Part shown: positions 16,708-57,312 of the stretch, piece after piece
Position numbering within the stretch: position 1 is the stretch's first letter
How the letters are laid out: every line of letters starts with the position of its first letter
Assembly: GCA_030867875.1 (NCBI GenBank)
Contig: JAOWCC010000577.1
Coordinates: 152,884,344 to 152,948,343, forward strand
Direction: 5' to 3'
Origin: Actinernus sp. WN-2022
Lineage: Eukaryota > Cnidaria > Anthozoa > Actiniaria > Actinernidae
Length of the DNA stretch: 64,000 nt
Notes under the pieces: model-generated
What the model saw: the letters and a program-made list of their open reading frames with translations, nothing else
Told to the model about the DNA's origin: nothing
Databases searched by the model: none
Made by a program: the position numbers and the translations under genes

Positions 16708-17216
16708 TATGGAGGGGGATTCTGGACAAAAATGGCATTCGACTGGCCATATCATTGTCATTTGATGAAACCTTCATGGCATTGGATCAAACCTTCATGG
16801 CATTGGACCAAACCTTCATGGCATTGGATCAAACCTTCATGGCATTGGATCAAACCTTCATGGCATTGGATCAAACCTTCATGGCATTGGACCAAACCTT
16901 CATGGCATTGGATCAAACCTTCGTGGCATTGGATCAAACCTTCGTGGCATTGGACCAAACCTTCATGGCATTGGACCAAACCTTCGTGGCATTGGATCAA
17001 ACCTTCGTGGCATTGGATCAAACCTTCGTGGCATTGAACCAAAAGGCAAACTTCGGCGTGGCATTGGACCAAACCTTCGTGGCATTGGACCAAACCTTCG
17101 TGGCATTGGACCAAACCTTCGTGGCATTGGACCAAACCTTCGTGGCATTGGACCAAACCTTCGTGGCATTGGACCAAACCTTCGTGGCATTGGACCGAAC
17201 CTTCGTGGCATTGGGC
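16708..17216 (+). repeat. E1 left terminal repeat and 21-bp array
   Basis: A terminal segment of about 60 bp is followed by about 21 units of TTCATGGCATTGGACCAAACC or its TTCGTGG variant. The outermost seven units carry ATGG; inner units are mostly GTGG, with one reversion and one irregular unit near 17040. The array stops at 17216, where E2 begins, and resumes briefly at 40766. Because 21 is divisible by 3, long ORFs run through on both strands; these are not taken as genes. Confidence 0.9.
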
Positions 17217-17230
17217 ACTTAAGAAACATA

Positions 17231-17313
17231 TCAAACTTCTGTATCTCTACCATGGTATTTATGGTGATACAGGACACATCATATGTCTTGCCTCACCACC
17301 ACGTGACTGGTTG
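17231..17313 (+). repeat. E2 left inverted repeat
   Basis: It starts TCAAACTTCTGTATCT and contains ACCATGGTATTTATGGTGAT and CTTGCCTCACCA. The reverse complement lies at 40669-40750 with about five mismatches. It also holds a small internal palindrome CTGTATC...GATACAG. Confidence 0.85.
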
Positions 17314-19808
17314 CGGCACAGGCAGCCCAGGTTGCGGTCGTTAATATTCAACAGAGGTTCCTCGTACGTATCGGCAAAGGTGATCCACTTCCATGAGCAC
17401 GGCGAAGGAGACTACCATAAATAAGGCATTTTATAAAGCGAAAGTACATTCTCATAAGCATTCGAGGAAGGAAAATCGGATCGTCGCTAATTGGACCACA
17501 GGCCGCCCAAGTTCTGACTGTATAACACTGAGGTTTGTATGGGAGTTCTTCCGATAACTCAGAATAATAACATAAATCTCCTGTAATACAAGGTAAATAA
17601 AGGAAGAAGACTTACTTGAAGTTGTTTTGTCGTCCTATGTGTATTTCAGGTCGCTAGAACGGTGTTTCATGGAATTCTTGAGTCATACGCTTGGGCGGCC
17701 TGTGATTGGACTAAGATCTAGAGCTGAGCGAGCGAAAAATATCAAAGCTTAAAATTATATGTTCTATGACCGAAGTTGTCTTATTATTTATACTTCGATT
17801 ATTGAGATTCTTTGGTTTCGGCTCCGATCTCCGGCTAGAGGCTTCCGTGGATAGTATTAGTGTTTTTAAACAAATGGACACGGCTATATATACAATTTAG
17901 GTCCGTACTCCTTCCATAACAGCAATTTGTGACTGAAGTCTGATCATAATGTCCTTGTTTATAGAAATATTATAATTGTGGCTTTTGACCTTTTTATAGT
18001 AAAACTGTAAATGTTACAGTTTGACTAGAAAGAGGGTCCTATAAAGCGGACCTTTATCGATATATAAATAAAATAAATAATTAAATATTGTATTTGTTAT
18101 AGCAGGCTGAGTATTACAGCTTACAGCTGGTGGAGGCCTGCTTTTACTCCTCACACACTCCCCACTATACATTAACTGTTTTAGACACTTATTCAGTTTA
18201 ACTACGCTCAACTCACGGTTGATTTTTATATCAGCTACCCAACTGTATCGACCAGTGTCTGTAAATAAACCTAAATATACACCATATATAAAAAGGGTCA
18301 ATAGAACGGGCGCCTTTGGATTTGCCAGTGTGTTCAGACTGAGGCATCTCAGCCTTCCTGATTGCTTCTGTTGCTTTACTGAATATCAAGCTCAGTCTGA
18401 CTGATTAAGCTGAGTGATGTTTTCCGAAACCTTCGATGTTCAATTCAATTTAATTAAATTTATTTTTGCTCAATTTTTTTTTTATACAATAATTATAAAA
18501 TACAGACAGAGAACGGAGATAGACTAAGAGTAATATAATAAATAATAAGAAATGTGTGAGCCTGAGGGCTAAGTTAACCGCTGGGTTTTCTAGTTAGCCC
18601 CGGGCCAGCCATATTTAGTTAAGTGTTTATAACAGGTAGAGAAAAAAAAGGAGTTTAAGAGTTAATTTTAGAGAATTAGAGAGAGAATAATGATATATAG
18701 AAATTATGAGTGTTGTTCTGACAGTATGTGACGTTTCAGTTGTTTTGAAAAGGCGAATGCGCTCGGACTCGGACAATTAAATTTTGTCATTGAAGTTGGA
18801 CTCGAGGTTGAGTAATCAATGATATGGTGAGTAGTTTAAACAAGGTTGTCTTGTAATGTCGATAACATTTTTCGGCTCCTCATTTATAAAAGAACTAAAA
18901 GAAATATTGTATTTCTTATGGCAGCTTACACCTGACGTGCATGGGCCTGTTTCCCAGGGAGCTATACTCCCAGAAATTTAGGATACAGAGATATCGAAAC
19001 CCTGACCCAAATTAAAAGCGTGAAAAATCGTAAAATAGGTATTCTTTTCAAGGCTTGAAACTAAAATATAGGACAAGTGAATACCCAAAATTTATTGAAC
19101 ATATCGTTTTTATTTCTCTCAGTCTGTGTAATGCTTTACGTTTATTGAAGCCAGGGATTGTTACGTTTAGCGGACGTTGAGCAAATGCACGATGTCAAGA
19201 GTTAGGGGAACAAAAAAAACGTACCCAATTTAAGGATCGGATATTTTATTTAAGGATGATAAACCCTATGAGACCCTATTTAACGGTCCGGCACCTCGAA
19301 AACTATACCCTATCCCGCGGCACATACCTACAACAACAACATCTTTATGCGGACCCGTTACACAATCCAGTGCGTTTTCGGTTTTCACCAAATGTACTTT
19401 ACATTGCGTGAACGCTATGGTATATATACCTATATGGCTTATATATGGTTGAATATACAAGACAATCGACTCACGTGATGATTTTTGAGGGAGGGGAGAA
19501 AATCAGAGAACCTGTAGAAAAACCCTTCTCGTAGTCACTGAACAAAGAAGCATGCATGCAGATCTTGGCCATGTTCGATGCACTCACTTAAACTGGTCAT
19601 TGTCGATGTACGCTTCAGTTCCGCCTTGTGATCTAGTCTGTTTGCCAGAACTTTGAGTTGGATTTTGGATACATACGAGAGACTTATCGTGTGGTGTTCT
19701 TCGCATTTGCTTGTAACGATTTTCTTCTAAAACGGTACAAGAACACTTCTCAAGAACTAGTCTTCCGGCCATTCTCCATCCTCGTATATTGCCTTGCTTG
19801 CCTTGCAT
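17314..19808. other. No gene seen (E2 interior)
   Basis: Both strands were scanned; only short ORFs without motifs are found. A 95-codon minus ORF (18014-18301) has no recognisable domain. AT-rich simple sequence is common near 18470. Confidence 0.45.
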
Positions 19809-20095
19809 ACAGGGGCGTAGCCAGCAGTTTGCATAGGGGGGGGGGGGGAGGAGAGGGCACTCCACCAAACTCACGAATTTCGCGACTGCAATACTCTTTT
19901 ACATAGATAACGCGGTCTTTTGCACCAATCTCGTCTATTCAGGTACATCTCAGTTTTCAGTCACCAACCTTTTCCAGTAAGACTGTCGCATTGTTCACTG
20001 ACTCCCGGTAACTGACGTTACTGTGACGTTACTTTTCAGTTGCGTTTTTTTACGAAAGGGGAGAGGGCCCGGGCTCCCTCTGGCTACGCCCCCGT
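19809..20095. mobile_element. MITE with ACAGGGGCGTAGCCAG ends
   Basis: The left end AGGGGCGTAGCCAG at about 19811 is inverted at 20078-20093 (CTGGCTACGCCCC). A G-run of about 13 lies at 19838-19850. The right half matches 6093-6290 and 61786-61880 in reverse. It is non-coding. Confidence 0.75.
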
Positions 20096-20569
20096 ACATA
20101 GCTCAGTCTATGTACAATCTTTGTCTGTTCCTCCTCATCAAGCCGACACTTGCGGCAAAATTTCTGCCGGGATTTCGTCTGTCCCTTCTAGTTCCCATAT
20201 TTTAGCATTTTGATGGCTTCTAGCACATCACTATGAAGAACATCATCGTCTCTCCGAGAAAATGATGATTAAGTTTCGGTTAGATATTATTGACGAAGTT
20301 ACAACCTTTCGAAGATCCGAATAATGTTTTTGAAGTCAACCACCCACCCTTCGAAACAGTTTCTGTGATTTTTGTAACGTTCCATTGAGTCTCATTCCAT
20401 TATATATCCCTGATCAAATTTCACCCGATTCCAAAAGCAATTGCATCAACGTAACCTTTAATAATGTAGTTTCCGATGCATCTTTAAATTTGAAAACAGA
20501 ATCGTAGGGTGACTATGTGTTAACACAAATAACCTACCTTCACAGCATTTTGTGATATTTTACAGGTTT
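20096..20569. other. No gene seen
   Basis: Sequence between a MITE and the satellite array. No motif is recognised on either strand. Confidence 0.4.
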
Positions 20570-23069: not shown

Positions 23070-23177
23070 GTAATTTCATCTTTCCATTTGAATCGTACAC
23101 TTTTCAAACTTTGAATATTAATTATCCTCGCGATGATTTTTTGATTAGAACTCATGTTCTTTTGTAGTCAGTTTAAC

Positions 23178-23459
23178 CATAGTTAATAGAGTGGAATGGT
23201 TAGGAAACCCAGCGACCTTCTTTGTTATGGGTCTTTGTTAGCTTTTTTCAACCTTGAACGTGCACAAAAGACAATATAAATTCCAATGTGTTAATCATTC
23301 AGCCAATAGAAACGCGTGAGTTCAGTCGTTCAGGGGACGCTAATGAACTATAACCGTGCACAATCTTTTGTCTTACCCCTTCCAACATAAATCGCAGCAC
23401 CTTTGTTAGCCCCTTTGAAGTTTGCCGGGTTTCCTAACCATTCCACTCTATTAACTATG
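23178..23459 (+). mobile_element. MITE family A copy 3 (TSD GTTTAAC)
   Basis: It has the same 31-bp TIRs and length as 9190-9471, with a perfect 7-bp duplication GTTTAAC at 23171-23177 and 23460-23466. It is non-coding. It lies inside E2, so the family was active on both layers of the nest. Confidence 0.93.
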
Positions 23460-23466
23460 GTTTAAC

Positions 23467-33447: not shown

Positions 33448-33591
33448 TAGAGAGAGATGTGGTCTACCTGTGTAGAGACTGGGACTAGCCCGGTCAGACC
33501 CCGTTCGTAGTTGTTTGTAGTCGTTCATCATTCCGTTTGTTACACCCGAATAAATCATCTTTTAACAAGGAAATGGATGAACTCCTATCTA
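33448..33591 (+). repeat. 5' LTR (144 bp)
   Basis: It begins TAGAGAGAGATGTGG and ends CTCCTATCTA, so the termini are TAGA...TCTA. It matches 38723-38866 with one difference (position 9). CCCGC lies immediately outside on both sides. It contains AATAAA near 33550. At 144 bp it is very short for this class. Confidence 0.92.
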
Positions 33592-33604
33592 TGATGAACG
33601 ACTA
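33591..33604 (+). promoter_or_regulatory. Self-complementary primer-binding site
   Basis: ATGATGAACGACTA directly after the 5' LTR is the exact reverse complement of TAGTCGTTCATCAT inside the LTR (33518-33531), 14 of 14 bases. This is the arrangement of Tf1/sushi-type self-priming, in which the 5' end of the RNA primes its own reverse transcription. A tRNA primer was not looked for by search. Confidence 0.75.
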
Positions 33605-33789
33605 ACCATCTTTGGAAAACTACGAGGGAAACCAAGCCATAAACGGAGACAACTGGCACAAAACGACAGGAAAACGTCGACGAAACGTAACGGCCGCCAT
33701 CTTGGATTTCACCGCGACTGAAATCTTAGATTCTACGCGACTTTCGACGAGTCAAAGGCGCATCACAGGTCAACCAAACCTCAAGCACG

Positions 33790-36700
33790 ATGCCAAAACA
33801 CAAGTGCCCCTTCCCAGATTGTGACTACGAGACCGAAGACGTTGGAGACGAGCTCGCAGCAGTACTTATCTCCGTCCACGCGAAGGGAGTCCACACGAGT
33901 ACTCCAGCCCACGGCCCCCCTAATCAAACGGCAAGAATCGAGAAAATACGCCGACCAACAATATCGAGCGCTGGAACGAGCGAAGAATGGTCCTATTTTA
34001 CGACACGCTGGGGGGACTACGTCGAAGCAACGAAAGTACAAGGCAAAGATAAGGTGATTCAACTTCTCGAATGTTGCGACGAACAACTCAGGAAAGATCT
34101 GACACGCAATGCAGGTGGCTCCCTGACGAATAAACCTACAGAGGAGGTCCTAGAGGCAATTAAAAAGCTCGCCGTCCGAGAGGAAAATGCAATGGTGGCC
34201 AGAGTTCAACTCCACAACATGAGACAAGACAGGGACGAGACAATAAGAAGCTTCGGCGCACGCCTCCGCGGCCAAGCCGGTGTATGTAAATTTCTCATCA
34301 CGTGCCATAGCTGCAACACTGACGTCAACTTCACCGAGAATGTCCTCCGAGACGTCGTCACCCGGGGCCTAGTGGACGACGAAATCCAACTAGACCTACT
34401 TGGAGAGAAAAACCAAGACATGTCATTAGAAGAAGTCTTACAATATGTAGAGGCCAAGGAATCTGGCAAACGGTCAGCAGCGCGCCTCCTTCAAACCCAA
34501 GGCGCTGAGGCAATGCGAAGCCAATACCGAAAGCAGCAGAACCCCAATAGAAAGCCCAATGACAAACCAAACGACAAGCCCAATATCGAAGCCTGCAACC
34601 ACTGCGGTAAACCAGGCCATGGCCACATAACCCCTGCCAAACATCGAGAGCAAAAGTGTCCGGCTTTCGGCACCATCTGCCAACTATGCGGCCGCCCAAA
34701 CCACTTTGCGACTGCATGTCATAGCAAAAACAAACCCTTCCAACCGAGACCCCACACCACAGCCAGAGTGGGCAGACAAGCAGAAGGTGCCATCTTTGAC
34801 AATCTATGCAACATCACCAGCGGAGACCATGCTATCTATGGCATCACCCTAGACCACCACCTATACAACAACATGAATGATTGCTGGATCCAACGTCCAT
34901 CCAAGCCACAGCCACACATCTCGCTTAACGCCACCATCCACCCACAAGACTACGTAGCCCTTGGATACAAACCAGTTACTGACGCACTCAAGTCCATACA
35001 GCTACAAGCAATGGCAGACACAGGCTGCCAAAGCTGCCTGGTTAGCTTGAGCATCATTCGCCGCCTCGGATTAAGTGAAGCAGACCTAATTCCGGTCACC
35101 ACCCGTATGCGTGCAGCCAACAACAGCGGCATAAGGATCCTCGGCGCCATTATCCTACGATTGACAGGCACAACTGAACCCGGACAGCACCTAGAGACAA
35201 GGCAGATCGCATACGTCACCAACGACTCAGACCGCCTATTCATAAGCCGAGAGGCCTGTCAGGAATTAGGAATCATCTCAGAACGATTCCCAACAGTGGG
35301 AGAGACGCCCCCCCTTCAACACAACCACACCGTCACCATGTCAAATGTATCAGCAGACCAAGCAAACCAACAGCCCAAACTACAGGCATGTGACTGCTCG
35401 CGACGCCAGATGCCACCTCCAAAGCCGACTGCGCCCCCCTTCCCAGCAACAGAGGCCAACCGGGAACGCATACAAGATTGGCTCCTTGACCTTTACAAGT
35501 CAAGCACATTCAATACATGCGAACACCAACAGCTTCCCCTCATGGACGGTCCTCCCATGCGACTCATGGTGGACCCGGATGCAGAGCCTGTGGCCCACCA
35601 TACCCCAATCCCAGTCCCACTCCACTGGCAAGAGGCGGTAAAAGCTGGACTCGATCAAGACGTTGCCATCGGCGTCCTGGAGCCCGTGCCAGTTGGAGAT
35701 CCGGTGACATGGTGCCACCGCATGGTCATCTGCCCGAAGAAGAATGGTAAACCACGTCGCACCGTAGACTTCCAGTCTCTCAACCTTCACGCTACACGAG
35801 AGACTCACCACACCCAGAGCCCGTTTCACCAAGCACGCTCAGTGCCCCACAACAAGAAAAAAACAGTGTTTGATTGCTGGAACGGATATCACAGTGTTCC
35901 CCTACACAAAGACGACCGCCACCTTACCACATTTATTACCCCGTGGGGACGGTACCGATACAACACAGCCCCCCAGGGATACATCGCGTCTGGAGACGGG
36001 TACTCTCGAAGATTTGATGAGATTGTCTCCCATATCCCTGATAAGACCAAATGTATTGATGACACCCTACTGTGGGCAGACGACATCACCAGCAGTTTCC
36101 ACCAAGCAGTCAACTGGCTAGACATATGTGGGCGACACGGAATAACTCTCAACCCCGACAAGTTTGCATTTGCAGCCGACACAGTCGAGTTCGCAGGGTT
36201 TGAGATCACACTCGACAGCGTGCGCCCATGCGCAAAATATCTCGATGCAATCCGCCACTTCCCCACCCCAAGCAACACCACTGACATGCGCTCGTGGTTC
36301 GGCCTGGTCAACCAGGTCTCATATGCATTTGCAGCAACTGAACGCATGCTCCCATTCCGTGAGTCGCTGAAACCGGGTACTTCATTCCTGTGGAACGATG
36401 AGCTCAACCGTCTATTTGAAGAATCCAAATCAGCCATCATCTCCGACATTGAAGACGGCGTCCGTATCTTTGACAAATCAAAGCCAACATGTCTGGCCAC
36501 TGACTGGTCTAAAACCGGTATTGGTTACTGGCTCTTCCAGAAACACTGCCAGTGCTCCTCCACAGAGCCCTTTTGCTGCCGCAGCGGCTGGAAGGTGACA
36601 CTAGTGGGTAGTCGCTTCACCCATGCAGCAGAGTCACGCTATGCCCCCATAGAAGGTGAAGCCCTAGCTGTCGCTGATGCCCTTGACAAGGCACGCTTCT

Positions 36701-38595: not shown

Positions 38596-38710
38596 ACCTC
38601 ACACCATATCTGCGATGAACATTCTATTATATATACCTAGTTGTTTTGGTATTATCAGTCTTTACCGACCCTCCACACGTACCGTCAAAATTGCAAAGGA
38701 ACACTAAAGA

Positions 38711-38722
38711 CTTAGGGGGAGA
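38711..38722 (+). promoter_or_regulatory. Polypurine tract
   Basis: AGGGGGAGA sits immediately before the 3' LTR, the expected place for the plus-strand primer. It is 115 bp after the gag-pol stop. Confidence 0.75.
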
Positions 38723-38866
38723 TAGAGAGATATGTGGTCTACCTGTGTAGAGACTGGGACTAGCCCGGTCAGACCCCGTTCGTAGTTGTTTGTAGTCGTT
38801 CATCATTCCGTTTGTTACACCCGAATAAATCATCTTTTAACAAGGAAATGGATGAACTCCTATCTA
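38723..38866 (+). repeat. 3' LTR (144 bp)
   Basis: It is identical to the 5' LTR except for one base. It is followed at 38867-38871 by CCCGC, which also precedes the 5' LTR at 33443-33447. This is a 5-bp target-site duplication, usual for Ty3/Gypsy elements. Confidence 0.92.
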
Positions 38867-40750: not shown

Positions 40751-40765
40751 CAGCTATTATACCTC

Positions 40766-40825
40766 CATTGGGCCGAACCTTCGTGGCATTGGACCATTGG
40801 GTCAGCGGATTTGTGCATTACCCAT
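40766..40825 (+). repeat. E1 left array remnant and inner 31-bp repeat
   Basis: About one and a half 21-bp units (CATTGGGCCGAACCTTCGTGG) continue the array broken at 17216. They are followed by CATTGGGTCAGCGGATTTGT... at 40795-40825. The inner repeat is found inverted at 56916-56946, so the left end of E1 is complete once E2 is removed. Confidence 0.85.
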
Positions 40826-41279
40826 AAGGCCACACAGCGGTCAAACGTCTGCGCATGCGTCGAAAGTCTTGCAACATCAACATATTCCAAACCAAATTCA
40901 AACCGAAGCGAGCCGGCGGCCGTCACTGTTCACACAACCGTTTTCAAACTCTTGAGAACTGTTTTGGTAAATTACGAAAAAAATTGGTAAACTCACAGTT
41001 TGAAGTTTGTTCAATTTCCTCATTCCCTCTCCTCATTCCCTCTCCCCTCTTTCCCAATCTTCCCCATTCCCCCTGGGCTTGCTACGCAGGCTACTTTCAC
41101 GTATTTTTCTTAACTTTTCGGGGTAGATTTGCGCGGGAAATTCGCGCGGCCGCCCACAAGACTGACCGTAATACGCACGCGCAGACGTTTGACCGCTGTG
41201 TGCCTTTGGAACCTTTGGCGCCAAGCGACAACGTTTGTTTCTCATTTCGTATTCCAATTTTTCCTCGCCGAGAAGAAGA

Positions 41280-44200
41280 ATGTCGAAGGGTGTTGAAGCA
41301 GTTGAAGAAGCCTCGCGGATTCTAAAGGAAGCCATCCAGAGGCTGGAGGGTTTATCCAGGAGGTCGGCGGATTCTAGTACAGCTTTGCCCCCTCGGCAAG
41401 TGCCGGTTCCACTCCGCCAAGAGGCACAGAACTCGACGATGAACTCGACGATGAACTCGACGATGAACTCGACGATGAACTCGACGATGAACTCGACGAT
41501 GAACTCGACTGCTTCGGGCTCACAGTCACAAGCTGCCGAAGAATTCAGGTAAAAATCAGCATGTATTAAAGAACTTAAGGGATCTCTTTTTGTCCATATT
41601 TGGATGATATATGCTTGCCGATTTACAGTCCGTATTTTTGTGGCAGTAATTAACTAAGGGATTTTGCGTCATGGAACGTGATCGGGGGGCGGGCATAGGA
41701 CCCTGCCCTGAAAATCAGGTTCATTCACTATTTAAGTATGCTCTCCTGGTAAAAAATCAGAATACCGGCAACCTTTTAAGCCTGAAAAATTACCTCTTAC
41801 TTATCAAGAACTGAAGAAGATAACAAAAGTGCATTGACCAAAGTTTTACCCCCATCCTAACCCCCCCCCCCCCCCCCCCCCCCTCAGGAGTCAGGGACAT
41901 ATTAAACGATCGGGTATTACATTTCCAAATTTTGATCAGCCACTCTACTTTATGTGAATAAATATAAGCTTAAACTGTATTAAAACCATAACACCGAAAA
42001 TGGAACTTATCTTTTAGTCCTTTTTGGAACTAATCATTGTGTAACCTTATGTTGTACAATGCTGGAAATTCTCTTTCATTCTTCCTTGGGGGTGGGGGTG
42101 ACCTCTGTCTGTAAATGAGGAATAAAGGAATTCCCAGAGGAGTGGAGGAATCTTGTGTTGCTTAATTCCTCCATGGTAAGGGTATGGAGATTCTCTGGAA
42201 TCACACAATAAATTTGACACTAGCTGCTATTCATAACATTTTCAGGCGCAGATTTCCAGGCCTGTGCACTAGAAATATTGCCAGGCCTACCCAAGGTCGA
42301 TGTCAGCCACCAAAGAAGAAATTAAAGACAGGTTATGTCCCAAAGTGGAAGCCACTGGAGACATGGACACATGACGTGTGTGTCCTGGCTGGCCAGGAGG
42401 AGAGCCTTACCCCATCCAGGAGCAGACTATCAACTCTCAGAAGTGCAGGCTTAGGGAAATTAAAGATTATTTTCCCCAAGTCTGCCTCACATGAAGAGTT
42501 TGAGGCCCTTCTCACAGACAAATTTCCAAAACTAAAAGATGCTGGAGGCATTGAGGTACTACGTGCAGATGGTGGTGGAGCTGGGCAGAGATATCTCAGC
42601 CTGCTACCTCCCAGTAAGGTCGGATACAGTGTTCAGTACTTGAAAGAAAGGCTGGGGCAGGCAGTGGCTTACATAAGGCCCCTGCAAGCCAACCTGGATG
42701 AAACACCAGCTGTATGTGAGGTAAGAATTAGTGTTGTTAAAAGCCTTATTCTTAGTCTTATACTCCTCTCACGAGTGTTTGAATTACAATGCATCTTCAT
42801 CCATTTCACACCCTATTAGATATTCATTTCACAAGTAATTTACAACATGATACAACACTCCCGCTCATGTTGTAAACATTACATACACTCATGATTGTAA
42901 ACTGTGGCTGCCTATAGCACCATAATAGCAGTCCAACTGACGAGCTGTCAGCTCACTTGTAAAGTGCATTTGAATACATTCACATAGAATTTGTGCTATA
43001 CAAATGCACACATTATTATTATTATTAGTAGTAGTAGTAGTATTAGTACTAGTAGTATTATGTTATGTTATTATCTTCACCTGTGACTTAATTGTAAGCT
43101 GTGTGAGTGCATTTATATCTAATTGGCATAAAATAATTCGAAACCATTTTTAGGTTGAGGAATCCCCCGAAGTAAGTTGTATTAACTGCCATTTGGCTGT
43201 ACCCATGGCAGAAATGCGCAGCCATCAGAAGGGATGTGGTTTTGGCTCATCAGGAAGCAAACATGCAAGGTAAATTAAAGCCTCTTGCACCTACCCAATA
43301 TTACAGGTTGTGAGATCAACTTTTTAATTTGTTTTCCTTTCTCACTGGTCGCATGGACACTAAAACTTCCAACACAAATTTATCCCTAACTTTTATCACT
43401 AGGACTTTTTATTACTATATTTTCATAATACTCAGAGTTCCATTAATGCACAAATGTGTATTTTTATGCGCAAAAATGGAAAAGGATGCACAGTTTTGGA
43501 GCATTGTGCATCCCTCACACACATGAAATTGGGTACTACCTAGGATTGGACTCCCAAAAATAAAAATGGACCCTGGTTTTAGGAACCTGGAGGTCCTAGG
43601 GACCCCTTAATTTTAAAACTAGTGGGGGGGGCATCTATGTGTAATAATTTGAAAGAACTGATTAATCAAAACAAATATTTTACTTTCACAGGGAGGGAAT
43701 CAGTGTTACATCCATTAGTGATGATGAGGTAATTAAACACCTGGTAATGTTGCCTTAGCAGTTTCTCATCATTTCAAATGGGTAATATTTGGAGCTGCTT
43801 ATTTATGAGTTACTGGTATGCAGATTAAAAATTGTGAGATCACATGATTGACAAGTCACATATTTCTTATTCCATGAAAATTTTGCAACACTTTGGAAAA
43901 TTTCAAGATGTTTTAAAAATCCAAAATTAAAATTGCAAAAATTTGTTGAGCTACTGGTGGCCTTTAAAAGGCTGGACTGGTGGGGCTATACTCCACCATT
44001 TATTTATTTGTTTTGTCATATTATATTATTCTATAGGAAGATAACATGACTCAATGCTGCTTTATGTGTGATGCGGTGGTTGATCTGAAAGAGTTTGCAA
44101 ATCATCTGGATGAGTGCAGGTGACAACACATCACATAACACTTTTAATTGCATCTTTCAAATTCACCTACAAAAAATCTTATTGATTGATATCCATATAG

Positions 44201-47200
44201 TACATAGACATGTTTATTGACTACCTCCATATTCATGGTATTAATGTAAACATTTTGATGGTCCAGAGGGCCTGCTATCCATACATACATCCATTTCCAC
44301 TTAATTGAAATTGATAAAATTGAGTAAACATATCAAACAACAAATCTACTGACTGAAACAAATACATCCACTGGCAAAAACAAACAATGGTTTTCAAAGG
44401 TCGCATGACTTCAATGATACCACAGAGCCCCAATTAGTGGTAAATAGTCTGTTTCTGAGCAAACCAAACATCAGGAAAACACAAATTTGTGGAATTTAAT
44501 AATGATTTAATTCTAAACCTCTTCAAAGTTATGTAGTAATTTCCACAGTAACATACTCATAAATTATTAATAAGTTTTAGAAACATGTGCATACATTTTC
44601 CTTATTCAATAAAATCATATTGTGTAAATAAATAAAATCATGAACTCCACTTTTACCTAGCCTAAACAATTGTCTGCAATTTATATATTTTTTAAATTTA
44701 TATTGTTTATTATAGCCAAAAAAGTAAAGAGGCCATGGAGGAGTTTTTGGGAGATGGAGAAAGTAACCACAGCAACCATGACTCTCCAGTAAATACTCAA
44801 GCCCCAACAACCACTGAGGACAATAGCAGCAACACACAGGACAGTGGCACCAACAGCCAAGACTCCAATTCTGTACAGAATACCAATCCAGAAAATGGCA
44901 ATAATTCTGTATCTGTGGAAACACAGGACAATGGTGATGACTCCACCTCTGTGCAGGATGATGACAGTGATGATGATGATGACCTTGTGCCCATGATCGA
45001 TGAAGCACAATACTTGTCTGGCATAGACAATGTAGTAAAAGAAACAATAGATTACTGCAAGTCTGCTGGACTGGACAATAACCCTGTTGAAATACTGCGA
45101 TTTTTCCAGTCAAAGATGGTAGAAGGAAGGGCCCTTGAAGTTGAGGACTCAGTTACATCACCTGAAGGGCAAACAAATTCCCTATATATTGACAGGAATA
45201 ATGTTCTCAATACAGGAATGGCCGAGATTAAAGGGTTGAAGGGGCACAACAAGCGTATCACCCTCAAGATTACATTTTATGGTGAGGTAAGACTACAAAA
45301 GTATATCATCTAATGTAATGCATTTGTATGTCTGTGCCACTTACATGTATCCACATTTTGTTATTGATTTCATTGAACTTTTTACTGCTTACAATAATCA
45401 GCTGGGCATAATGAAAATACCACAGTATGACAAAATACTACAACACTTCAAATAATAGGCAGTGGACTAACAACAGTTTACACATTTAATTACTGTGTAA
45501 GTTGTAATGATAATAAGTTTTCTAACTTACACAGCAAGCCGATGATTATGGAGGCCCAAGAAAGGAGTTCTTCCAGCTCATACTCCAAAGTATTAAAGAA
45601 AAGTATTTTGACCATGGCATTCTTGAGCATGCGAGGACTGAGTACCATACAGTTGGATTTATATTTGGTAAGTTTTTAAAGCAGACTCAATCATATTAAT
45701 TTAGCATTCCTAACAGTGTTGGCTATGTAAGTTTTCTTTCACTTTTTTTAACGAAGAATTGGCCCCATAACGATGAAACTTTGTTGTATATTAATTACCA
45801 TAAAATTCCGAAAATAAGCCCCCCAAAAACCTTGCATATAACACCCTTCCGATAACAAGGCACCCTGAATATAGCCCCTGGGGCTTATTTATGGAAGACA
45901 TTGAATGGTAAAACGGTCTTCCTAGCAAAGTCCCTTTTCATTTGTATATTCTGACAGCCAACAGTTCAGCCAAACGTGCCTGCCGTATTCGTTTTTTTTT
46001 TCTTTCGTATTTCCAAAAACTAAGAATTTTTGAGGAACATCAGGATTCCATTTGACTTGTTTTACAAAGGAAAAAGGGGGATTTGCTGAGAATTGAAGTT
46101 TGTCGTGAAGGACAACTTGAGAGTGGGAGCACATGCATATCAATAAAACGAGGAACTGGACCAGGTAGACTGGTGGATAGACAGACCGAAGAATTTATAT
46201 ACAACAATCAAACTTATAAGTTTTAAGAGAACTCGGTACAGGACATTAGCAATTCTCTCAAAATATGTTTTCTCATAAATGATTGTAAATAAAATTCTTA
46301 ATTTCACTGAAAGTTATCTTCGTTCTTGATGGTAGGATCCCAGAAATCCTCGGATTTTTTACAAACGTATAAGTAAGTGTTATAAGTGATATTTTCATGG
46401 GCATTCAGCTAGTAATTCATTAAATAAATCAAGGATGATTGTTTGGTGACAAGGACTAATAATTATGAACTATTCATGTTATGGGGTAAATTCTTTGGCA
46501 TCTGACTTAGGGCTCTGATTTGACTCGGCCAATCGATGAACTCTGAACGAAGGGAGATTGTAAGCTCCATAAACGTTTTAAGGCTCTGACATCTGTTTAC
46601 ACTCAAGAATGATAGACAGAAAAGCCCTTATTTTTTGTTCTTTAGCTCTAAGCATGCTGCAGAATGGGAAACTTCCCATATTCCTGACAGAGGAACAAGT
46701 GGATGATGTGTTCACAAACCCTAACCCTCCACCCTGTATGCAAGAGCTACGACAAGGACTGAGTGAGCTGGGAATTTACCAGGTACATTGTACATGTACA
46801 CAAGTTGAATATTATAGGTCAATTGTCGATATTAAGATTCACCCACTACTTTGTGCAACAAATGGAAAACATTGGTGAAAATATGGCTTGTTTTACCATA
46901 CCATCCTTAATAATTAAGGATAGGGATGGTTAGGCCATGGTAACCCTGGTGGAAAACTTGGACAGGATCCTGAGTAGGATCCTGACAGGATCCTGCATAG
47001 GATCCTAGTTAGGATCTTGTTTAGGATCCTGTAGGATCCTGTAGGATCCTGTAGGATCCTGACACAGGATCCTGTAGGATCCTACAGGATCCTACAGGAT
47101 CCTACTCAGGATCCTACTCAGGATCCTACTCAGGATCCTACTCAGGATCCTACTCAGGATCCTACTCAGGATCCTACTCAGGATCCTACTCAGGATCCTA

Positions 47201-50200
47201 CTCAGGATCCTGAACGATTTCCTGTAGGATCCTGGGCTATTTCCTGTAGGATCCTGGGCTATTCCTGTAGGATCCTGGGCTATTCCTGTAGGATCCTGGG
47301 CTATTCCTATAGGATCCTGGGCTGTTCCTGTAGGATCCTGGGCTATTCCTATAGGATCCTGGGCTATTCCTGTAGGATACTGGGCTATTCCTATAGGATC
47401 CTGGGCTATTCCTGTAGGATCCTGGGCTATTCCTATAGGATACTAAAGGATCCTGGGCTATTCCTATAGGATCCTGGGCTATTCCTGTAGGATCCTGGGC
47501 TATTCCTGTAGGATCCTGGGCTATTCCTGTAGGATCCTGGGCTATTCCTGTAGAATCCTGGGCTATTCCTATAGGATACTATAGGATCCTGGGCTGTTCC
47601 TGTAGGATCCTGGGCTATTCCTGTAGGATCTTGGGCTATTCTCTGTAGTATCCTGGGCTATTCCTGTAGGATCCTGGGCTATTCCTATAGGATACTATAG
47701 GATCCTGGGCTATTCCTGTAGGATACTGGGCTATTCCTAAAGGATCCTGGGCTGTTCCTGTAGGATCCTGGGATATTCCCTGTAGTATCCTGGGCTATTT
47801 CCTGTAGGATCCTTACACCCAAATCGTATACCATAGTTGTCATTAAACATAAAAATAACACAGTAATTATTGTTTTAAAACTCCATGTATAGTTTATTAT
47901 AAATAGAAACATGCATGTAAGTGAGTTACAATGTACATGTATCATTACAATCGCCAGACAGTGAAATACTCCTATTTCTATAAATAAGTTAAAAGTATTC
48001 ATTTACAATACACACTATAAAGAAGTTATTGCTTAGTGAATCAAAATTACAGAGTTGAGACTTAATATGTAACAAAAACTGCATCTAATGGAAAATGCAG
48101 GAATTCCATCACCTTATTTGGACTTCAGTGACTTTTGAGATGAAATTTGAGCTTTTGAATCTGACTAGATAGATAATCTTAGCTAGTAAAGCGAAATGTT
48201 GTACTGTCAAAACATTTACAAGTGATCAAAAAGGTATACTGTCATAGTTGTTTATAATTTCATATCAATAAACCTACCCACACTGAACTATCAAAGAACA
48301 CTGAATGAGTTGTTGCTGCATAAATCGTTCAGGGCCACTTTTCAAGCCGGATCTTTATTTGCTAGGGAGTGAATCTAGGCTATGAATAAACATTACATGC
48401 AAGTGCACTATGAACCACGAACATGATGGCCGTTCACCCAAGCAAATGGGGATCCTCGATAGTATACCTTGAAAATAACTGCATCTTTGGCTTACTGACC
48501 TCACAAAAGAGCTGGCTTGAAAAGTGGCCTGCTGTGATGTGTGTTGGTTTTGAAATTATAAACAACTATTATGTTTTGACAGTCGTAGGAAAAATTCGCT
48601 TGACCGGGCCGAGCCACGAAAGAACGAAGCAGACAAGCTACCGACACACACTAAATAGGCTTGAATCACTGCCAAGCAAGCGAGCAGCCTTGGTAGTTAT
48701 ATTCCTTGAAAAGAACTCTGTTGTTCGCATTCGGCTTCTGAGAATTGCAACTAATTTATGCATCGTGAAACAGCTATCTGCTACGTCATCAGTATGAAAT
48801 GTTCTGCCTCGTTGCCCGACGTCTCTTTTGCGAGTGGGGGAGCGATAAGAGTCGGCTGGTTTCCCAGGCTATAGATTTTGGAGAAAATCTAAAAACCACT
48901 GAATGTGCTTGGAATACACACAGTTATTTTCAGCGATTTTGAAATGAACTGAGGAACCTTGCACATGTACATGTGTAGATGTATGTGGAGTGGTTAAGAT
49001 GAAAGCAAGAACGACTAACAAATTGTATGTAAAGAGAACAACTATATACAGGTGCAACACCTTAACATAGCCTCTTTAAAATCTAGCTTAGGTTTGGAAA
49101 AAAAAGTAACAGAGTTAATAATGAATGTTCCATGCCATTCTAACTTTTTAACTTTTAGTTTATTACATAAATTATAGCTATAGGTTTTACAAACTATACA
49201 TTTTTAATAAAAATGATTGTGATCTTCACTCACTACTTGGCAGTCAACTTTTCCCTGATTATCTTTCATTGTTGGTGATAATTTCAAGAATTAACCCTTT
49301 AGCCCCAAGGGTGATCAAAGGGAAGCAGGCAGATCATGAGTATTTGGAGTTGATCAAAATGTATCCAAATGTATAGAGAAAAGAATTTGAATTTCACTTT
49401 TGGGGCTGGAAGGGTTAAAAACTTTGGTCCTTGATCTTTAATCCAAAACCTGTAAAAACAATTAACCACAATAAGAATTACGATTTAGATGAGTACGGTG
49501 GTGTATAAAGTCCCGTGCGGTTTGCCAACCGGAAACCGACAAATATTTTTATACATCCAGTCATCCTACATGTACTTCCGTTTCTACCAAAATAACTTCG
49601 GTTTTGTGGCTGATTGTGTTGAATAGGGTATTGAGAAGCACTCCAACATCAAACATTCTAGAATGATAAAGTTTGAAAAGGGATTAATAAGACCTGGGAC
49701 ACGAAAATGTGAATTTTGTCGTTCCAAAAAGGCAAAATGTTTGAATTACTAGTACAGTGAATCTCAATGAAGTCCATCTCAACTCTTGAAGAAATTTCGA
49801 TTGGAATCGTAAACTTCACTTGACCTCTTGGAAGCTTTCATAAATAGTTTCTTCAAATATATCTTGGAATATATTCAAGTACACTGACTACAGATCAGAG
49901 TATACAGGGCTAGTAATAGTATAGGCCATAGCAATTCATCTTTTAGTCAATTAGTGTGAGCAACATGAACAAATTAACGAACCTAACATAAACTTCTGCT
50001 CACCATTTCTTCAGGAATTCATCTCTTCCAGAACTGAAACTGCCTCTCACTTGGAGCAGTTATTATTATCTTTCATCTGATGAATATTGGCATTGAAATG
50101 CTGTTGAAATGACCTTCTAAGCGAGTTTAAAACTCCAGCAACAAAATGGCCTCTTGGCTTCTTGCTATTTGAAATGTGCAACCGTTACCAAATATGGATA

Positions 50201-53200
50201 TAGACTTGGTTCTAGGCCACTCGGTTGAAGCACAGGCAGCCCAAGCCAAAACGATTATAGAATTGCCTCAAACCAAAAATAAACACATCAGTGATGAACA
50301 GGAACAACTTCTTAACACTTTATTTCCTCTTTTACTACAGTTTCAGATTTGTTCTAAAAAAATCCCATAACATTCCTTGTAACAATCATTAGCTTGGACT
50401 GCCTGTGGTTAAAGTGGAACTTTGTCTCTTCCATGTTTATATTCAAATTTCTCAATGAAAGCACACTTTTAAGGGGCTGGATGAAAATATTTTGCTTAAT
50501 TAAATAATGGGAATTTGTTTTTGGACAAGCCAGCCTACTTGGTGAGTAATATAAAATCTTTAGTCTAAAACAACCAGGAGAAGTCATCGTTATGTTAGAG
50601 CTTTTTTTATCCTTTCAACAACAATTAACATCCTGAACTGATCATTAATTACAGGGGGGAGCGGGGCTGGCTGGTGAAAAAAGGGGGTGGGTCCCCAATT
50701 TTAATGCAGAAAATTAGGGGGGCATAGTAAGCTAGAGTGGAAATCATTGGGGGGAGGGGTCATCAAAAATTGAGCATGACATTTTTCAGTTAATTCTTAT
50801 AAGGATTATGTTCCGATCCTAGAAAGATTATATAATTTTTCAAGAATTTGCTATGTCATAGGAATCCTACTTAATAATTATGTAGGATTCCTATTCAATT
50901 AGGTGCTGCATGTAACTATGTACATGCATGTACATGTAGGTCCTATTCAAGATGCTGTTCCTATGTAGGATCCTATTCAGGATTATGTTCCTATATTTTT
51001 ATTATGTAGGATCCTGTTCCTACATAGGATCCTATTCAGGATGCTATTCCTACATAGGATCCTATTCAGGATTATGTTCCTATGTAGGATCCTATTCAGG
51101 ATCCTATTCCTACATAGGATCCTATTCAGGATTATGTTCCTATGTAGGAACCTATTCAGGAACCTATTCCTACATAGGATCCTATTCAGGATTATGTTCC
51201 TATGTAGATTCCTACATAGGATCCTATTCAGGATTATGTTCCTATGTAGGATCCTATTCAGGATCCTATTCCTACATAGGATCCTATTCAGGATTATGTT
51301 CCTATGTAGGATCCTATTCAGGATCCTATTCCTACATAGGATCCTATTCAGGATTATGTTCCTATGTAGGATCCTATTCAGGATTATGTTCCTATGTAGG
51401 ATCCTATTCAGGATCCTATTCCTACATAGGATCCTATTCAGGATTATGTTCCTATGTAGGATCCTATTCAGGATCCTATTCCTACATAGGATCCTATTCA
51501 GGATTATGTTCCTATGTAGGATCCTATTCAGGATCCTATTCCTATGTAGGATCCTATTCAGGATCCTATTCCTACATAGGATCCTATTCAGGATTATGTT
51601 CCTATGTAGGATCCTATTCAGGATTATGTTCCTATGTAGGATCCTATTCAGGATCCTATTCCTACATAGGATCCTATTCAGGATTATGTTCCTATGTAGG
51701 ATCCTATTCAGGATCCTATTCCTACATAGGATCCTATTCAGGATTATGTTCCTATGTAGGATCCTATTCAGGATCCTATTCCTACATAGGATCCTATTCA
51801 GGATTATGTTCCTATGTAGGATCCTACTCAGGATCCTGTTCCTGTTCAGGATCCTGCTCAGGATCCTGTCCCTGTGTAGGATCCTACAGGATCCTACAGG
51901 ATCCTACAGGATCCTACAGGATCCTACAGGATCCTGTCCAGGTTTTCCACCAGGGAAGCCATATCTGATTTCACATGTTCCTTTTCAAACACTTTAACAG
52001 TGACTTTATTTATGTTCAATTTCAACAGATTGCTCAAGAACTCCCCTTATTTCTACATTTATTCAGAAAGAATGAAGCCCCAGCAATGACAGTTCCAAAG
52101 CTATTAGACATTCTGAAGCCAGAATTTAGTCCTGATGGCTCCAATGCTAGGCAGTTTGAGGGGATGGTTTATGCTGCTTTTGTTGCATATGTGAAGAAAG
52201 TTGCAAGTGAGTGTTCTGATTTTCAAAATCTAAATAAAAAAGAAAAGGAAAGACAGATCAGGGACCATTCGTTTTTATGAGGTGTGGTTTCAGAGCAGAT
52301 CAATGAACTATTTTCCCTGACCCCCTCCTCAACCATAAGTTTTCTGTAGGTACAAATTGCTCATTCAGGAAAAAATTGAAAATCTGAGCATTTCTGGGAC
52401 TCTAGGGGACCTAAAGCAATATATATTAGGGGGTTCTGGAGGCATGCTCCTCTTGAGAAAATTTGCCCGAATTTTACTTCTATTTATGCCTTTTCCCATT
52501 ATTTTGAAGAACACTGCTGGTGCTAATCTTTTCAACATGGATTACCCTCTCCCCCCTTTAAATTTAGAGTCTACCTTTTTGAGGTGACCCTAAATCCAAC
52601 CCCCGCCCCACCTACAAAAAATGAATGGTCCCTGAGATACATGTACATTAATGGCATCATATACTACAACTCACTACATGTACCATAAACTACTTAAGTG
52701 ATCCCTTTGTATCTGTAATCAGCACAATTGTGTTATTATTCCCATTGGGACCTTTAATAGCATTTGAATAAGAAAAGGAACCAACACTATAAGAGCAGAT
52801 GCAAAGGAAGCTAGGAACAACCAATCACATATTGCAGGACTAAACTATAGTTTTGGATTTTATGTTACATGTGCTGCAACATCTATTACATGTAAACATA
52901 AATCTTTTTGGTGAAAAACATATTGAAAGTTTAGGTTTTTTGGTTGAAATGTCAAACATTTTTACACTAGCAAAATGAGCAAAACCACTAACATTTATTT
53001 AGAAGTGGTTTCAATATTTACTCGCAAATGCTTGCTAGTGGATTTTTAACTTTCAAACTAGAAAACAAGTTTGCGAGTTGTGAGTGTTTATTTCGAGCCC
53101 TGAAGTGGTAATTAAACTTTGTGTCATGCAATTTTGATCTGATATCATACTTGGGTTTTCAAATTGCATTCCTGCTATGCAGTCACTTGATTTTGTAATA

Positions 53201-53655
53201 ACTTGTATGATTTCAGAACAAAATGCACTCCAATCAATGCAATTACCATTATAAAATATTAGGGATGCTGAATGAGTCTTATCGATTTTTTGGGTATCTG
53301 GTTTGCATTTTGAAAGTCTTGGCATCTCAGTGGGTCTCTGATTTACCATCAGATACTCCTAATATTTCTATTCGTTTTTTTTATAGGTGGATCAAGACTT
53401 GATGGTAATATTTCGCTTGGTCACATCCTACAGTTTTGCACTGGTGAAGACGAAGAGCCTGTCCTTGGTTTCAAGCTCAGTCCATGCATTCTTTTCAAAG
53501 AAGCTGTTGGCAAAGATTTCCTTCCAACAGCAAACACTTGCTGCAGTTGCCTCTATATCCCAAGACCAACCACAACAAATCCACTTCCAAAAAAGATTGA
53601 CCTATACAATTTATATGACTACGCTTTTGCTAATACATATTTTGGACGGGCATAA
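41280..53655 (+). CDS. Putative HECT E3 ubiquitin ligase with two UBZ4-like fingers, carried by E1
   Basis: Ten exons with GT/AG borders and consistent phase: 41280-41548, 42246-42720, 43154-43269, 43692-43728, 44037-44119, 44716-45286, 45535-45667, 46646-46782, 52029-52206, 53387-53655. Joined, they give 755 codons plus stop with no break. The N terminus has a short helix and seven STMN repeats. Residues 90-248 hold a domain I recall only from animal proteins labelled G2/M-phase-specific E3 ligase-like. Two fingers with identical spacing C-x2-C-x11-H-x3-C follow (C257, C260, H272, C276; C307, C310, H322, C326), the RAD18-type UBZ4 pattern that binds ubiquitin. After an acidic Ser/Asn-rich linker comes a HECT-like domain to the C terminus. 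Its LPTANTC motif puts the presumed thioester Cys at 718. The domain looks short (about 320 aa), as in other G2E3-like proteins. The role in E1 is unknown. Exon joins are by eye. Confidence 0.82.
41441..41512 (+). repeat. In-frame 12-bp coding repeat
   Basis: The unit AACTCGACGATG is repeated about six to seven times in exon 1, giving STMN/NSTM repeats. It is a likely site of length variation. NST looks like a glycosylation sequon, but no signal peptide is present, so that is not expected to be used. Confidence 0.9.
41549..42245. other. Intron 1 with C-run
   Basis: A C-run of about 22 lies at 41862-41883. No other element is recognised. Confidence 0.6.
42886..43040 (+). mobile_element. 5'-truncated SINE in intron 2
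   Basis: GATTGTAAACTGTGGCTGCC and GTGCTATACAAATGCACACATT followed by (ATT)n match the 3' half of the SINE at 9664-10020. The tRNA head is missing. Confidence 0.7.
45783..45910. mobile_element. Small MITE in intron 7 (AATAAGCCCC ends)
   Basis: CATAAAATTCCGAAAATAAG and CCCC are mirrored by GGGGCTTATTTATGG near 45890. The remaining intron up to 46645 shows no gene. Confidence 0.55.
46968..47815 (+). repeat. GGATCC-rich minisatellite 1 (intron 8)
   Basis: Units of 12 bp (CTCAGGATCCTA) pass into units of about 21 bp (GGGCTATTCCTGTAGGATCCT). More than 50 GGATCC or one-off words are present. It lies in the 5.2-kb intron 8 of the ligase gene. Confidence 0.93.
47816..50934. other. Intron 8 interior, no gene seen
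   Basis: AT-rich sequence between two related minisatellites. A 124-codon plus ORF (48423-48797) has no recognisable motif. A G-rich stretch near 50655-50760 may belong to a MITE. Confidence 0.45.
50935..51945 (+). repeat. GGATCC-rich minisatellite 2 (intron 8)
   Basis: A 30-bp basic unit contains GTTCCTATGTAGGATCCTAT, and units are arranged in 60-bp pairs (CATAGGATCC alternating with TGTAGGATCC). It ends in 10-bp GGATCCTACA units. Periods are multiples of three, so ORFs of 318 and 338 codons run through; these are taken as by-products. Confidence 0.93.
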
Positions 53656-55071
53656 ATTACAGTAGCAGAAATATGGGTACAAAGCAAATTGTCAGAATTT
53701 TATATATTTTTTTGTATTTCACCTGGAGAAACATGCCTATCAAACTCTATAAACAGAGGATTTGGACTCAAACCTGTATTGAAGAGAAGGGCAGAGACAG
53801 GTGTGTGTAATTCAAATTTTCCAACTTATCAGGATATAAGGATATGAACTGAAACTGGTTGTACAGTATGGGATTTTAGTGAAATTGACACAAATAGGTA
53901 GTTATTTATGTACATGTACAGAAAATACAAGAGTGCAGACAACATACCCATGAAACAGTACTGAGTAATTAGCGCTAAATAGTACTACATTGTAGGTAAC
54001 ATTAATTAGTGCTATTTAGTCTTAGCCCTATTTCATGGGTATATTGTCTGCATTCTATACGAACAAGGATATTTACAATAATAAGGTTCTATTTTTGTCA
54101 TCTAGAAAACTTGAACATGCACAGGAATTTTATTTCAGAATTTTGCAGGATTCTTTTTCGTACACTTTTTTGGGGGTGAATCCCACCTAATTTCTAATGG
54201 TCCACCTCTAAATACCATAAGGTCTATTATAAATGAGTCCCCCCCCCCCCCCCCCCCCAGGCTTAGCCTATATACATGTAGGTGTGGGTGGGTTTTAACA
54301 GTAAGTGATATACAAAATTCTATACTGTAGATATCCCATACCTACAGTGTCATTATTTGTTAAAGTTTCCTGCCATATTGGGTGTTCACATTACAGTTCA
54401 AAATCAGAACTTTTGCAAATGGCTGTACATTTACTGTGTACACAAATAGGTTATGGTGGTGCCCATAGTTTCATATCTCCTTCAATTCCACAATGCAATA
54501 TTTTATCCAGTAAGGCAGCACCCATATACCGTAAATGCTCAAATTAGTGCCCAGCTTCAAGTAAGTACCCCTCTACCCATACCCCCACCCCCAAAGAAAG
54601 AAAATTTATAATGATGAAAGCAAATCTTATGACATAGATACATATATGCTTCTAAGGGATAATAGACAAGTTATAGTTTGGTATTTATTATTACAGTTTA
54701 TAAAACAAAGAAAATGCAGTCCATATTAAGGCCGAAATGTGGAAACGGAATAATGAAGTACATGTACCCCCTCAAGACTGAGGAAATTAAAGAAGCGCCC
54801 CGGGCACTAATTCAAGCATTTACGGTTGTTAATTTTATACCCAAAGTCAATCCCACAATGCTATGTTTGTTTCTACTGTGATTTCAACTCGCAACTGGTC
54901 TATTACTTTAAATCATGTACTATTATTACAATGTTATATTTTGCCTCCCTTTGTTTGTTGAACATTCTTACACAAGTTGTGAATTAACAGTTATGGCTTT
55001 CCATCCCCATTGTTTGTTTGTGCTACAACAAAGAAATAAATATTTGATTCTTTGTGTTTTAGAAAGATGAC
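53656..55071. other. Intergenic region between the two convergent E1 genes
   Basis: It contains a fold-back pair GTGCAGACAACATACCCATG / CATGGGTATATTGTCTGCA (53932-54058), a C-run of about 20 at 54240-54259, and a TIR element at 54527-54836. No further gene is seen. Confidence 0.6.
54527..54836. mobile_element. MITE with CCGTAAATGCT ends
   Basis: ACCGTAAATGCTCAAATTAG is mirrored by CACTAATTCAAGCATTTACGG. The interior is non-coding and about 310 bp long. Confidence 0.78.
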
Positions 55072-56878
55072 TTACTTCATTTTCTCTGTAACAAAGTTGC
55101 AAACATTTAAGAAGAGTTCTATTCCATAATTTTCATCAGGGTCAAGAGGGTTGATTTGATTCTGCAGCTCCAGATAATCACTCGCTGACAATGGGTGGTT
55201 GTAATCCAGTAAATCAACACCAGCCTCATCTGTGTCTGTTGATATGAGGGTCATGTCATAATCAATCCCATAGTCATCCCAGTTCTGAAAAATGAGATAA
55301 GTGTATATCCTGCATGAATGTTTAGTTTTCAGACTCTGTTTGCACTCTATGGGGTCACACTATTATTCATACATGTAGTTACATTTTAGGAAAACCTTCC
55401 AGCAGCTGCAAATAAGAAATAAAAAAATTATAATCCAAATACCATATTGCCTATTAATCATTTTACCTGAACTGTTTGTTCTTCGATTCCTCTTGCACTA
55501 ACATCAGGGCTTGCTCTTGCTTGAGCAAGTCCCATGATCCAGAGCTGACTTGGAGTTTTGTTGCCTGCAGTTCTAACAGGGTGGCAATTCCAAGAGGTAG
55601 CAAACTTTTCGAGATGGTCATTTATCCTTGGCAGATATACATAATGCAGTGAGAACATGTGAATGTCATCAGACAGGTCAAGATGGCCTGATTCCTCAAG
55701 GTAGTAAAAGACTGTGTAATAGATGTACAAGCAGCTTGCAAATACATCTCTCCATAGCCTCTCGATGCGTTGATTGTGGACGCTAGGTCCTGTGATGTAA
55801 CTGCCTCTACCAGGTCCCCTCAACGGATGATTCAGCATATGCCACGCAACCTTCACATTCTCTACACCATGGTCTCCTCTTACTCTGGATGGGAGGCCAT
55901 GGACTTCTACTGCTTTCAAGAACTCCCTCAAGACTGTGTTAGCTTTGTTGTTGGAGTTGCATGCAAGGTACATGACTTTTCTCGAGTATCCATCTATGCA
56001 TCCATGAACAACAAATTTCCACCTAAAGAGTAAGGACATTATACTTAACTCGTGTAATGTGGGGTATTGTGCAGTTCCAGAAATTACCATACCCCTGGGT
56101 TAGAAATTATAGCAAATGTACACTTAAACAGTACAACAAGATTGTGATCAGGTTCCAATGTAACGTACCTTATGAGTTTATGGTGGCCATCCATGTGCCA
56201 CAATGAAAGAGGAGCTCTGACATTGTATGATCTTCTGTGTGTGACCCGAATTTGAAGAGCCCTTACAATGGTGCCTTCGGGGTCATTTCTCCTCATTGCC
56301 TCCCTCACACGGTCTTCCTGCACTTTGTGCCCCCTTGACAGCAGATGGCCACGCATGGCTTTATACCCAGAATTAGGAAACTCTTGTAGGATCGTTTGTA
56401 TAACAGCATCTAGCTCTGGTCCGCTCAAAGTCGAATATGATGCCCGAAATGGCATGCCAAATTCTTCAAGCCTCCTGTAAATTGTTTTGTCGCTCACACC
56501 AACTAGTTTTGCGATATCTGTGGCTTTAAATCCATTATCCAACAAGTACTCGAGATTCTCTCTTGGAATGTAAAATGTGGGTCTTCCTCTGTTCCCATTT
56601 GCTAACAAAGGTGGGACAGAGTGGTTGGACTTGGCAGGGTTATCATCAATGCTTGACAGAATCTGCTGTACTTCGAGTAAAGGTATCAACAACAATTTTT
56701 CAAATTCTCCTCCAAGCCTTGAGAGCAGAGCACAAACCCAGTCAATCTTGTAATTCATATAATCTAAGTTGGAGCCAAAATCTCTACCTTCTATCTTCTG
56801 CAATACTTGTAGTAGTATATTTTCAAGGTTTTTACACACTATTTCATGCGGAGATTGATGCTGACCTTCGTCCGCCAT
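55072..56878 (-). CDS. Integrase-type DDE transposase of E1
   Basis: Three exons on the minus strand, 56878-56169, 56022-55467 and 55284-55072, with GT/AG borders and correct phase, give 492 aa and no break. It would cut and join the E1 ends. Residues 1-95 are largely helical. [16 protein letters not shown]...[18 protein letters not shown] (98-137) is a helix-turn-helix. Residues 153-200 ([19 protein letters not shown]) resemble the HTH_21-type segment that precedes the catalytic core in IS3-family transposases. The catalytic core has D230 (WHMDGHH), D287 (RGDHGVEN) and E324 (RIERLWRDV), with 36 residues between the last two. The acidic tail (423-492) is unassigned. The start codon lies 38 bp inside the inner E1 terminal repeat, so the terminal array probably supplies the promoter. 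IS3EU-like or Ginger-like are the nearest named groups I can suggest; this was not checked by search. Confidence 0.87.
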
Positions 56879-56915
56879 CTTTTTTTCTGGCGCTAACTTG
56901 GGTGCGCGGGATATT

Positions 56916-57312
56916 ATGGGTAATGCACAAATCCGCTGACCCAATGCCACGAAGGTTTGGTCCAATGCCACGAAGGTTCGGTCCAATGCCACGAAGGTTT
57001 GGTCCAATGCCATGAAGGTTCGGTCCAATGCCACGAAGGTTCGGTCCAATGCCACGAAGGTTCGGTCCAATGCCACGAAGGTTTGGTCCAATGCCACGAA
57101 GGTTTGGTCCAATGCCATGAAGGTTTGGTCCAATGCCATGAAGGTTTGGTCCAATGCCATGAAGGTTTGGTCCAATGCCATGAAGGTTTGGTCCAATGCC
57201 ATGAAGGTTTGATCCAATGCCATGAAGGTTTGGTCCAATGCCATGAAGGTTTCATCAAATGACAATGATATGGCCAGTCGAATGCCATTTTTGTCCAGAA
57301 TCCCCCTCCATA
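56916..57312 (-). repeat. E1 right terminal repeat and 21-bp array
   Basis: Reading inward from 57312: the 60-bp terminal segment, seven ATGG-type units, about eight mostly GTGG-type units including one ATGG unit, then the 31-bp inner repeat (56946-56916). The order mirrors the left end, including the seven outer ATGG units. About 15 units are present, against about 21 plus a remnant on the left. Confidence 0.92.

Follow-up and report, generated by a model that had tools for sequence, protein, structure and literature searches.

How a 40.6-kb stretch came to interrupt one copy of a duplicated region, and what the genes between its ends might do, are the questions raised by this locus of the actiniarian Actinernus sp. 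WN-2022. The window that we analysed is a 64,000-nucleotide stretch of contig JAOWCC010000577.1 (assembly GCA_030867875.1), in which the interrupting stretch, termed E1 here, runs from 16708 to 57312 with two predicted genes between its ends. We put at roughly 80% the probability that E1 is an inserted element, most likely a cut-and-paste transposon of the IS3EU type, carrying a predicted DDE transposase and, as its second gene, a predicted HECT ubiquitin ligase.

The ends of E1 read TATGG..CCATA. Its terminal inverted repeat (TIR; TATGGAGG...) is identical at 79 of 79 bases between the start at 16708 and the reverse complement ending at 57312, and the two arms are complementary at 95% over 336 nt. 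The hexamer CTAGGC abuts E1 on both sides (16702-16707 and 57313-57318) as a target site duplication, recognised from the sequence and from a search of positions 16700-57330 for inverted 9-mers with arms at least 800 bp apart and bordered by direct repeats of 4-10 bp, in which the pair 16708/57312 with CTAGGC ranked first. A 21-bp unit, CATTGGAYCRAACCTTCRTGG, is repeated in arrays that adjoin the two ends on the inside; the left array has 19 matches to a degenerate form of it and the right array 14, with one more elsewhere in E1 and none in the remaining window. The outer part of the left TIR, consisting of the 79-bp exact end followed by the array with 19 matches, occupies 16708-17214 on the forward strand and is severed by a nested block, E2, from its inner part (40766-40827, forward strand); the right TIR with its array of 14 matches occupies 56914-57312 on the reverse strand.

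The region around E1 is duplicated within the window, and the duplicates preserve the site in its uninterrupted state. A duplicate at 1143-6192 pairs piecewise with 16062-16709 and 57313-61878, and at 1681-1686 (forward strand) it holds a single, uninterrupted CTAGGC, whose flanks align with those of the filled site at 153/156 identical bases on the left and 138/140 identical aligned bases on the right. A third copy, inverted, is likewise uninterrupted at 62059-62064 (reverse strand), where flank alignment places CTAGAC in the position of CTAGGC and where 147/155 and 130/136 aligned bases are identical. The transposase and ligase genes are both absent from the empty copies. Since the duplicates are uninterrupted at this site, an insertion there accounts for the stretch 16708-57312. 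Recombination or misassembly among the duplicated blocks might create an apparent empty site without any transposition, and flanks that are duplicated and rearranged, with one copy inverted, do invite assembly errors; we nevertheless give this explanation next to no weight, because the break is base-exact at both ends of the 79-bp inverted repeat, the 6-bp duplication is clean and two duplicates read through the very same base without a break. The sequence-only reading of this DNA had claimed exact inverted ends, a CTAGGC duplication on both sides and a preserved empty site in the neighbouring duplicate; all three hold at base resolution, and the second empty copy strengthens the last of them. 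Its further claim of two intron-containing genes is borne out at the level of prediction by a three-exon transposase model and an eight-exon model for the second gene, which it had not identified and which is here a predicted HECT ubiquitin ligase.

The predicted IS3EU-type transposase lies on the reverse strand at 55072-56878, and its three exons (56169-56878, 55467-56022 and 55072-55284) encode 492 residues with no stop. Exon 2 matches the Pfam integrase core family rva_4 (2.4e-70), exon 1 gives weak matches to helix-turn-helix families, under their cut-offs, and the last exon, scanned as an open reading frame (ORF), has no Pfam match. The residues D230, D287 and E324, spaced by 56 and 36 residues, are invariant in 20 aligned proteins. 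For exon 1, no Integrase_H2C2 match was listed at E≤0.1, and its translation, which contains two cysteines only, has no C-x2-C pair.

Published descriptions allow E1 to be placed among known families. According to the parts of PMC10045372 that deal with these elements, every complete IS3EU family has TA..TA termini, 6-bp duplications are the usual case, and IS3EU is joined with GingerRoot in one lineage. The passages of PMC12730594 on TET/JBP-carrying IS3EU elements of rust fungi describe 6-bp duplications, TIRs of more than 30 bp and ends of the form TAYGG..CCRTA, with transposase and alpha-kinase genes opposite in orientation and the TET/JBP gene between them. E1 agrees with IS3EU, as described in those portions of the two papers, in several features at once: CTAGGC occurs twice at the filled site and singly in the empty copy, the termini are of the TA..TA form, the 79 exact bases of the TIR exceed 30 bp, and no HHCC zinc motif is recognised before the core of the predicted DDE integrase-like transposase. 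Like the fungal elements in the passages cited, it also holds a further gene opposite in orientation to the transposase. It differs from the IS3EU elements described there in that this other gene encodes a predicted HECT ligase, not an alpha-kinase or a TET/JBP protein, that long 21-bp arrays lie inside its ends, and that nested elements bring it to 40.6 kb. GingerRoot, in the account of PMC10045372, shares with E1 the 6-bp duplications, mostly TA..TA termini and an integrase-related transposase, and differs in coming from a clubmoss, with animal relatives supposed, and in that section 3.3 of that paper mentions no ligase gene. Where the family had been left open among IS3EU, Ginger and Polinton, the evidence of the termini, the duplication of 6 bp and the transposase makes IS3EU the most likely assignment.

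An origin of E1 as a Ginger1/2 or Polinton/Maverick element draws on the integrase-like DDE enzymes common to all of these families. Polintons, too, give duplications of about 6 bp; their typical genes encode a polymerase, a packaging ATPase, a protease and a capsid. Matches to these four Polinton proteins were not listed for any of the nine ORFs scanned in the E1 core, and the HHCC integrase zinc-binding domain of Ginger1 is not found in the E1 transposase, whose first exon has neither the listed Integrase_H2C2 match nor the cysteine pair noted above. With ends of the TAYGG..CCRTA form, which in the described rust-fungal elements are those of IS3EU, we regard a Ginger or Polinton identity as very unlikely.

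Relatives of the transposase are numerous. Of 7991 candidates scored in a protein search, 2425 had E≤0.001, and the named entries among the best 120 of these 2425 include cnidarians, sponges, hemichordates, a mussel, a priapulid, a crinoid and fishes. In a tree of the E1 protein and 31 of these 120 homologues, it clusters with three proteins of the octocoral Dendronephthya gigantea (support 100/99), and two further proteins of that species are placed elsewhere. Taken by itself, this clustering would suggest an octocoral, or an animal close to that group, as the probable host. The transposase profile had no match among solved structures. When the transposase alignment was compared with genome contigs, 25 pattern matches yielded three loci, all in one assembly of a Cycloclasticus sponge symbiont and on contigs of 3.4-4.2 kb, which are probably sponge DNA within a bacterial record. 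Among viral contigs, none of 51 pattern matches to the transposase alignment and neither of two to the ligase alignment was confirmed as a relative, and the 20-base E1 end had no exact match.

The second gene lies on the forward strand at 41280-53655, and its model of eight exons (41280-41548, 42246-42720, 43154-43269, 44716-45286, 45535-45667, 46646-46782, 52029-52206 and 53387-53655) encodes 715 aa in an open frame, with all seven introns bounded by GT-AG. Its predicted architecture comprises a ubiquitin-like fold, a C2HC-type finger and a HECT domain. The exon at 42246-42720 (forward strand) encodes an N-terminal domain, for which modelling gives a ubiquitin-like beta-grasp fold with a predicted local distance difference test (pLDDT) score of about 97 in its core and with weak PDB matches. 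On the last exon the HECT profile scores 34.4 bits against a Pfam cut-off of 23.9, and 16 of 17 aligned family members have a HECT match at E≤0.01. A homologue search, for which the query excluded the first exon and an acidic stretch and still included a ninth exon that was later rejected, found 38 proteins, among them those of bivalves, a crinoid, a hemichordate and corals. Cys678, in the motif LPTANTCC, is a cysteine in all 30 homologues that cover the position (8 of the 38 do not), and its counterpart in AREL1 lies in a TC pair, the cysteine of which is the catalytic residue. The start of the N-lobe reads DYGGPRKEFF.

The predicted protein thus shares with HECT E3 ubiquitin ligases, of which AREL1, SMURF and UBR5 are among the solved relatives, the C-lobe motif LPTANTC, the N-lobe motif DYGGPRKEFF and the fold match of one of its homologues (P0122); it differs from them in having an N-terminal ubiquitin-like domain and a C2HC-type finger, and in lying inside a transposon. 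Marine invertebrates have a protein family that shows this pairing of ubiquitin-like domain and C2HC-type finger. A ninth exon at 44037-44119 was dropped from the model as it breaks the frame (17 stops). The same interval offers a second zinc-finger-like reading (CCFMCD...HLDEC) with splice-like borders, possibly that of a decayed or alternative exon.

Several observations weigh against our reading. Ligase and transposase were found together at this one locus only: by eye, no contig was shared between the best 120 of the 2425 transposase relatives and all 38 ligase relatives, and in the three sponge-symbiont loci, on contigs too short for a full element, no ligase match was better than E=0.016. 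The ligase could have entered E1 after E1 had inserted at the site, the candidate exon at 44037-44119 falls outside the open model, and the IS3EU label draws on published descriptions of ends and duplications and on the type of transposase. These points leave room for the alternative that the transposon is real and the ligase a passenger caught once, by transduplication or as an engulfed host gene, with no role in the element. Eight exons do resemble a host gene, the bivalve, crinoid, hemichordate and coral homologues may be nothing other than normal host genes, and the single co-occurrence fits this alternative too. Set against this are the intact frame and HECT active-site cysteine, the position of ligase exon 1, which begins some 450 bp inward of the left terminal repeat, the nine scanned ORFs of the E1 core, in which no other gene was recognised, and the fungal TET/JBP elements, which in the passages cited likewise hold a further gene, an alpha-kinase, opposite to the transposase. 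On balance we consider a passenger origin less likely than not, though it is the most serious competitor to a ligase that is a gene of the element.

A working cycle for E1 can be proposed. The transposase would attach by its helix-turn-helix to the 21-bp repeats that lie close to either end; its DDE core would excise E1 at its TATGG ends and insert it at a target cut with a 6-bp stagger, where gap repair would leave the CTAGGC duplication. E2 and a second nested block, E3, would have arrived after E1. With less certainty, the ligase would be expressed from E1 and would transfer ubiquitin via Cys678, the recipient being either a factor by which the host silences the element or the transposase. 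The TET/JBP gene of the fungal elements has been proposed, in the part of PMC12730594 concerned with it, to undo silencing DNA marks and so to aid the escape of the element. The E1 ligase would then, again with less certainty, be a gene for counter-silencing or copy control with a comparable role. The rust-fungal case described there, the closest parallel to E1, is alike in being an IS3EU element with a host-type enzyme gene proposed to help it escape silencing, and different in that its enzyme acts in DNA demethylation rather than as a ubiquitin ligase and that its hosts are fungi rather than an animal.

A wider and more tentative proposal, to which we grant somewhat less than even odds, is that a HECT ligase of their own is the usual second gene of animal IS3EU elements, and that this ligase serves either to break down a factor with which the host silences them or to tune the transposase. 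On that view, HECT families with this architecture, as found in corals, bivalves and hemichordates, would largely consist of transposon genes that have been annotated as host genes. Among the matches listed in a search of the open-licence literature, we found none that described a DNA transposon with a HECT ligase on board. The presence of a ubiquitin ligase on a cut-and-paste element would point to host proteins, rather than DNA marks, as what is attacked or, alternatively, to self-control of the element by protein turnover. It could also explain why HECT proteins of a single architecture turn up in scattered marine animals, and it would caution that these ligase genes may be miscounted as host genes.

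The size of E1 is owed partly to its nested blocks, E2 and, if it is also an insertion, E3, both of which probably came later than E1. E2 (17215-40765, 23551 bp) has imperfect inverted ends and lies inside the left array, which is broken at CATTGG on both sides of it (17209-17214 and 40766-40771); the placement of E2 follows from this break. CATTGG also belongs to the 21-bp array unit and is therefore weak evidence of a target duplication of E2. The palindrome CCATGG, which the search for inverted 9-mers had likewise yielded, was rejected as duplication or border of E2 since the inverted repeat extends outward past it. E2 contains a Ty3/gypsy-type long terminal repeat retrotransposon at 33448-38866 (forward strand), with 144-bp repeats that are 99% identical and a 1621-aa ORF with reverse transcriptase, RNase H and integrase, including an Integrase_H2C2 match. 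Ten E2 ORFs outside this insert were scanned against Pfam and none reached a curated cut-off; the one match listed was to COG5_N (E=0.059), and one of the scanned ORFs is the reverse frame of a tandem repeat. Without the Ty3/gypsy insert E2 amounts to about 18 kb; it could be a non-autonomous element of large size, or its genes may be of a kind not yet recognised.

Block E3 (46944-51955, 5012 bp) lies in intron 6 of the ligase gene, and its inverted ends, CCCTGGTGGAAAAC, are arrays of near-palindromic repeats of the type AGGATCCT with periods of 12, 21 and 30 bp. No clear target duplication was seen at its borders, and E3 is therefore a probable, not a proven, nested insertion. E1 measures 17048 bp without E2 and 12036 bp without E2 and E3. 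The nested 23.5-kb block of the sequence-only reading is thus real, with its border outside CCATGG, and so is the remainder of about 17 kb; the description of E1 as unusually large is weakened, as about 12 kb rather than 17 kb would remain if E3 is also nested.

Smaller features occur elsewhere in the window. A 282-bp short inverted-repeat element (CATAGTTAATAGAGTGGAATGG...) at 9190-9471 has CAAAGAC on both sides; its counterpart site near 63639-63646 is empty in the matching duplicate, and relatives of it lie at 861-1142 and, within E2, at 23165-23463. About 1.59 kb at 7378-8968 is present in one duplicate and missing from the other at 63428, with no terminal repeat or duplication evident in the short border stretches inspected. 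A reverse transcriptase remnant (RVT_1, E=2.6e-11) lies at 14025-14990.

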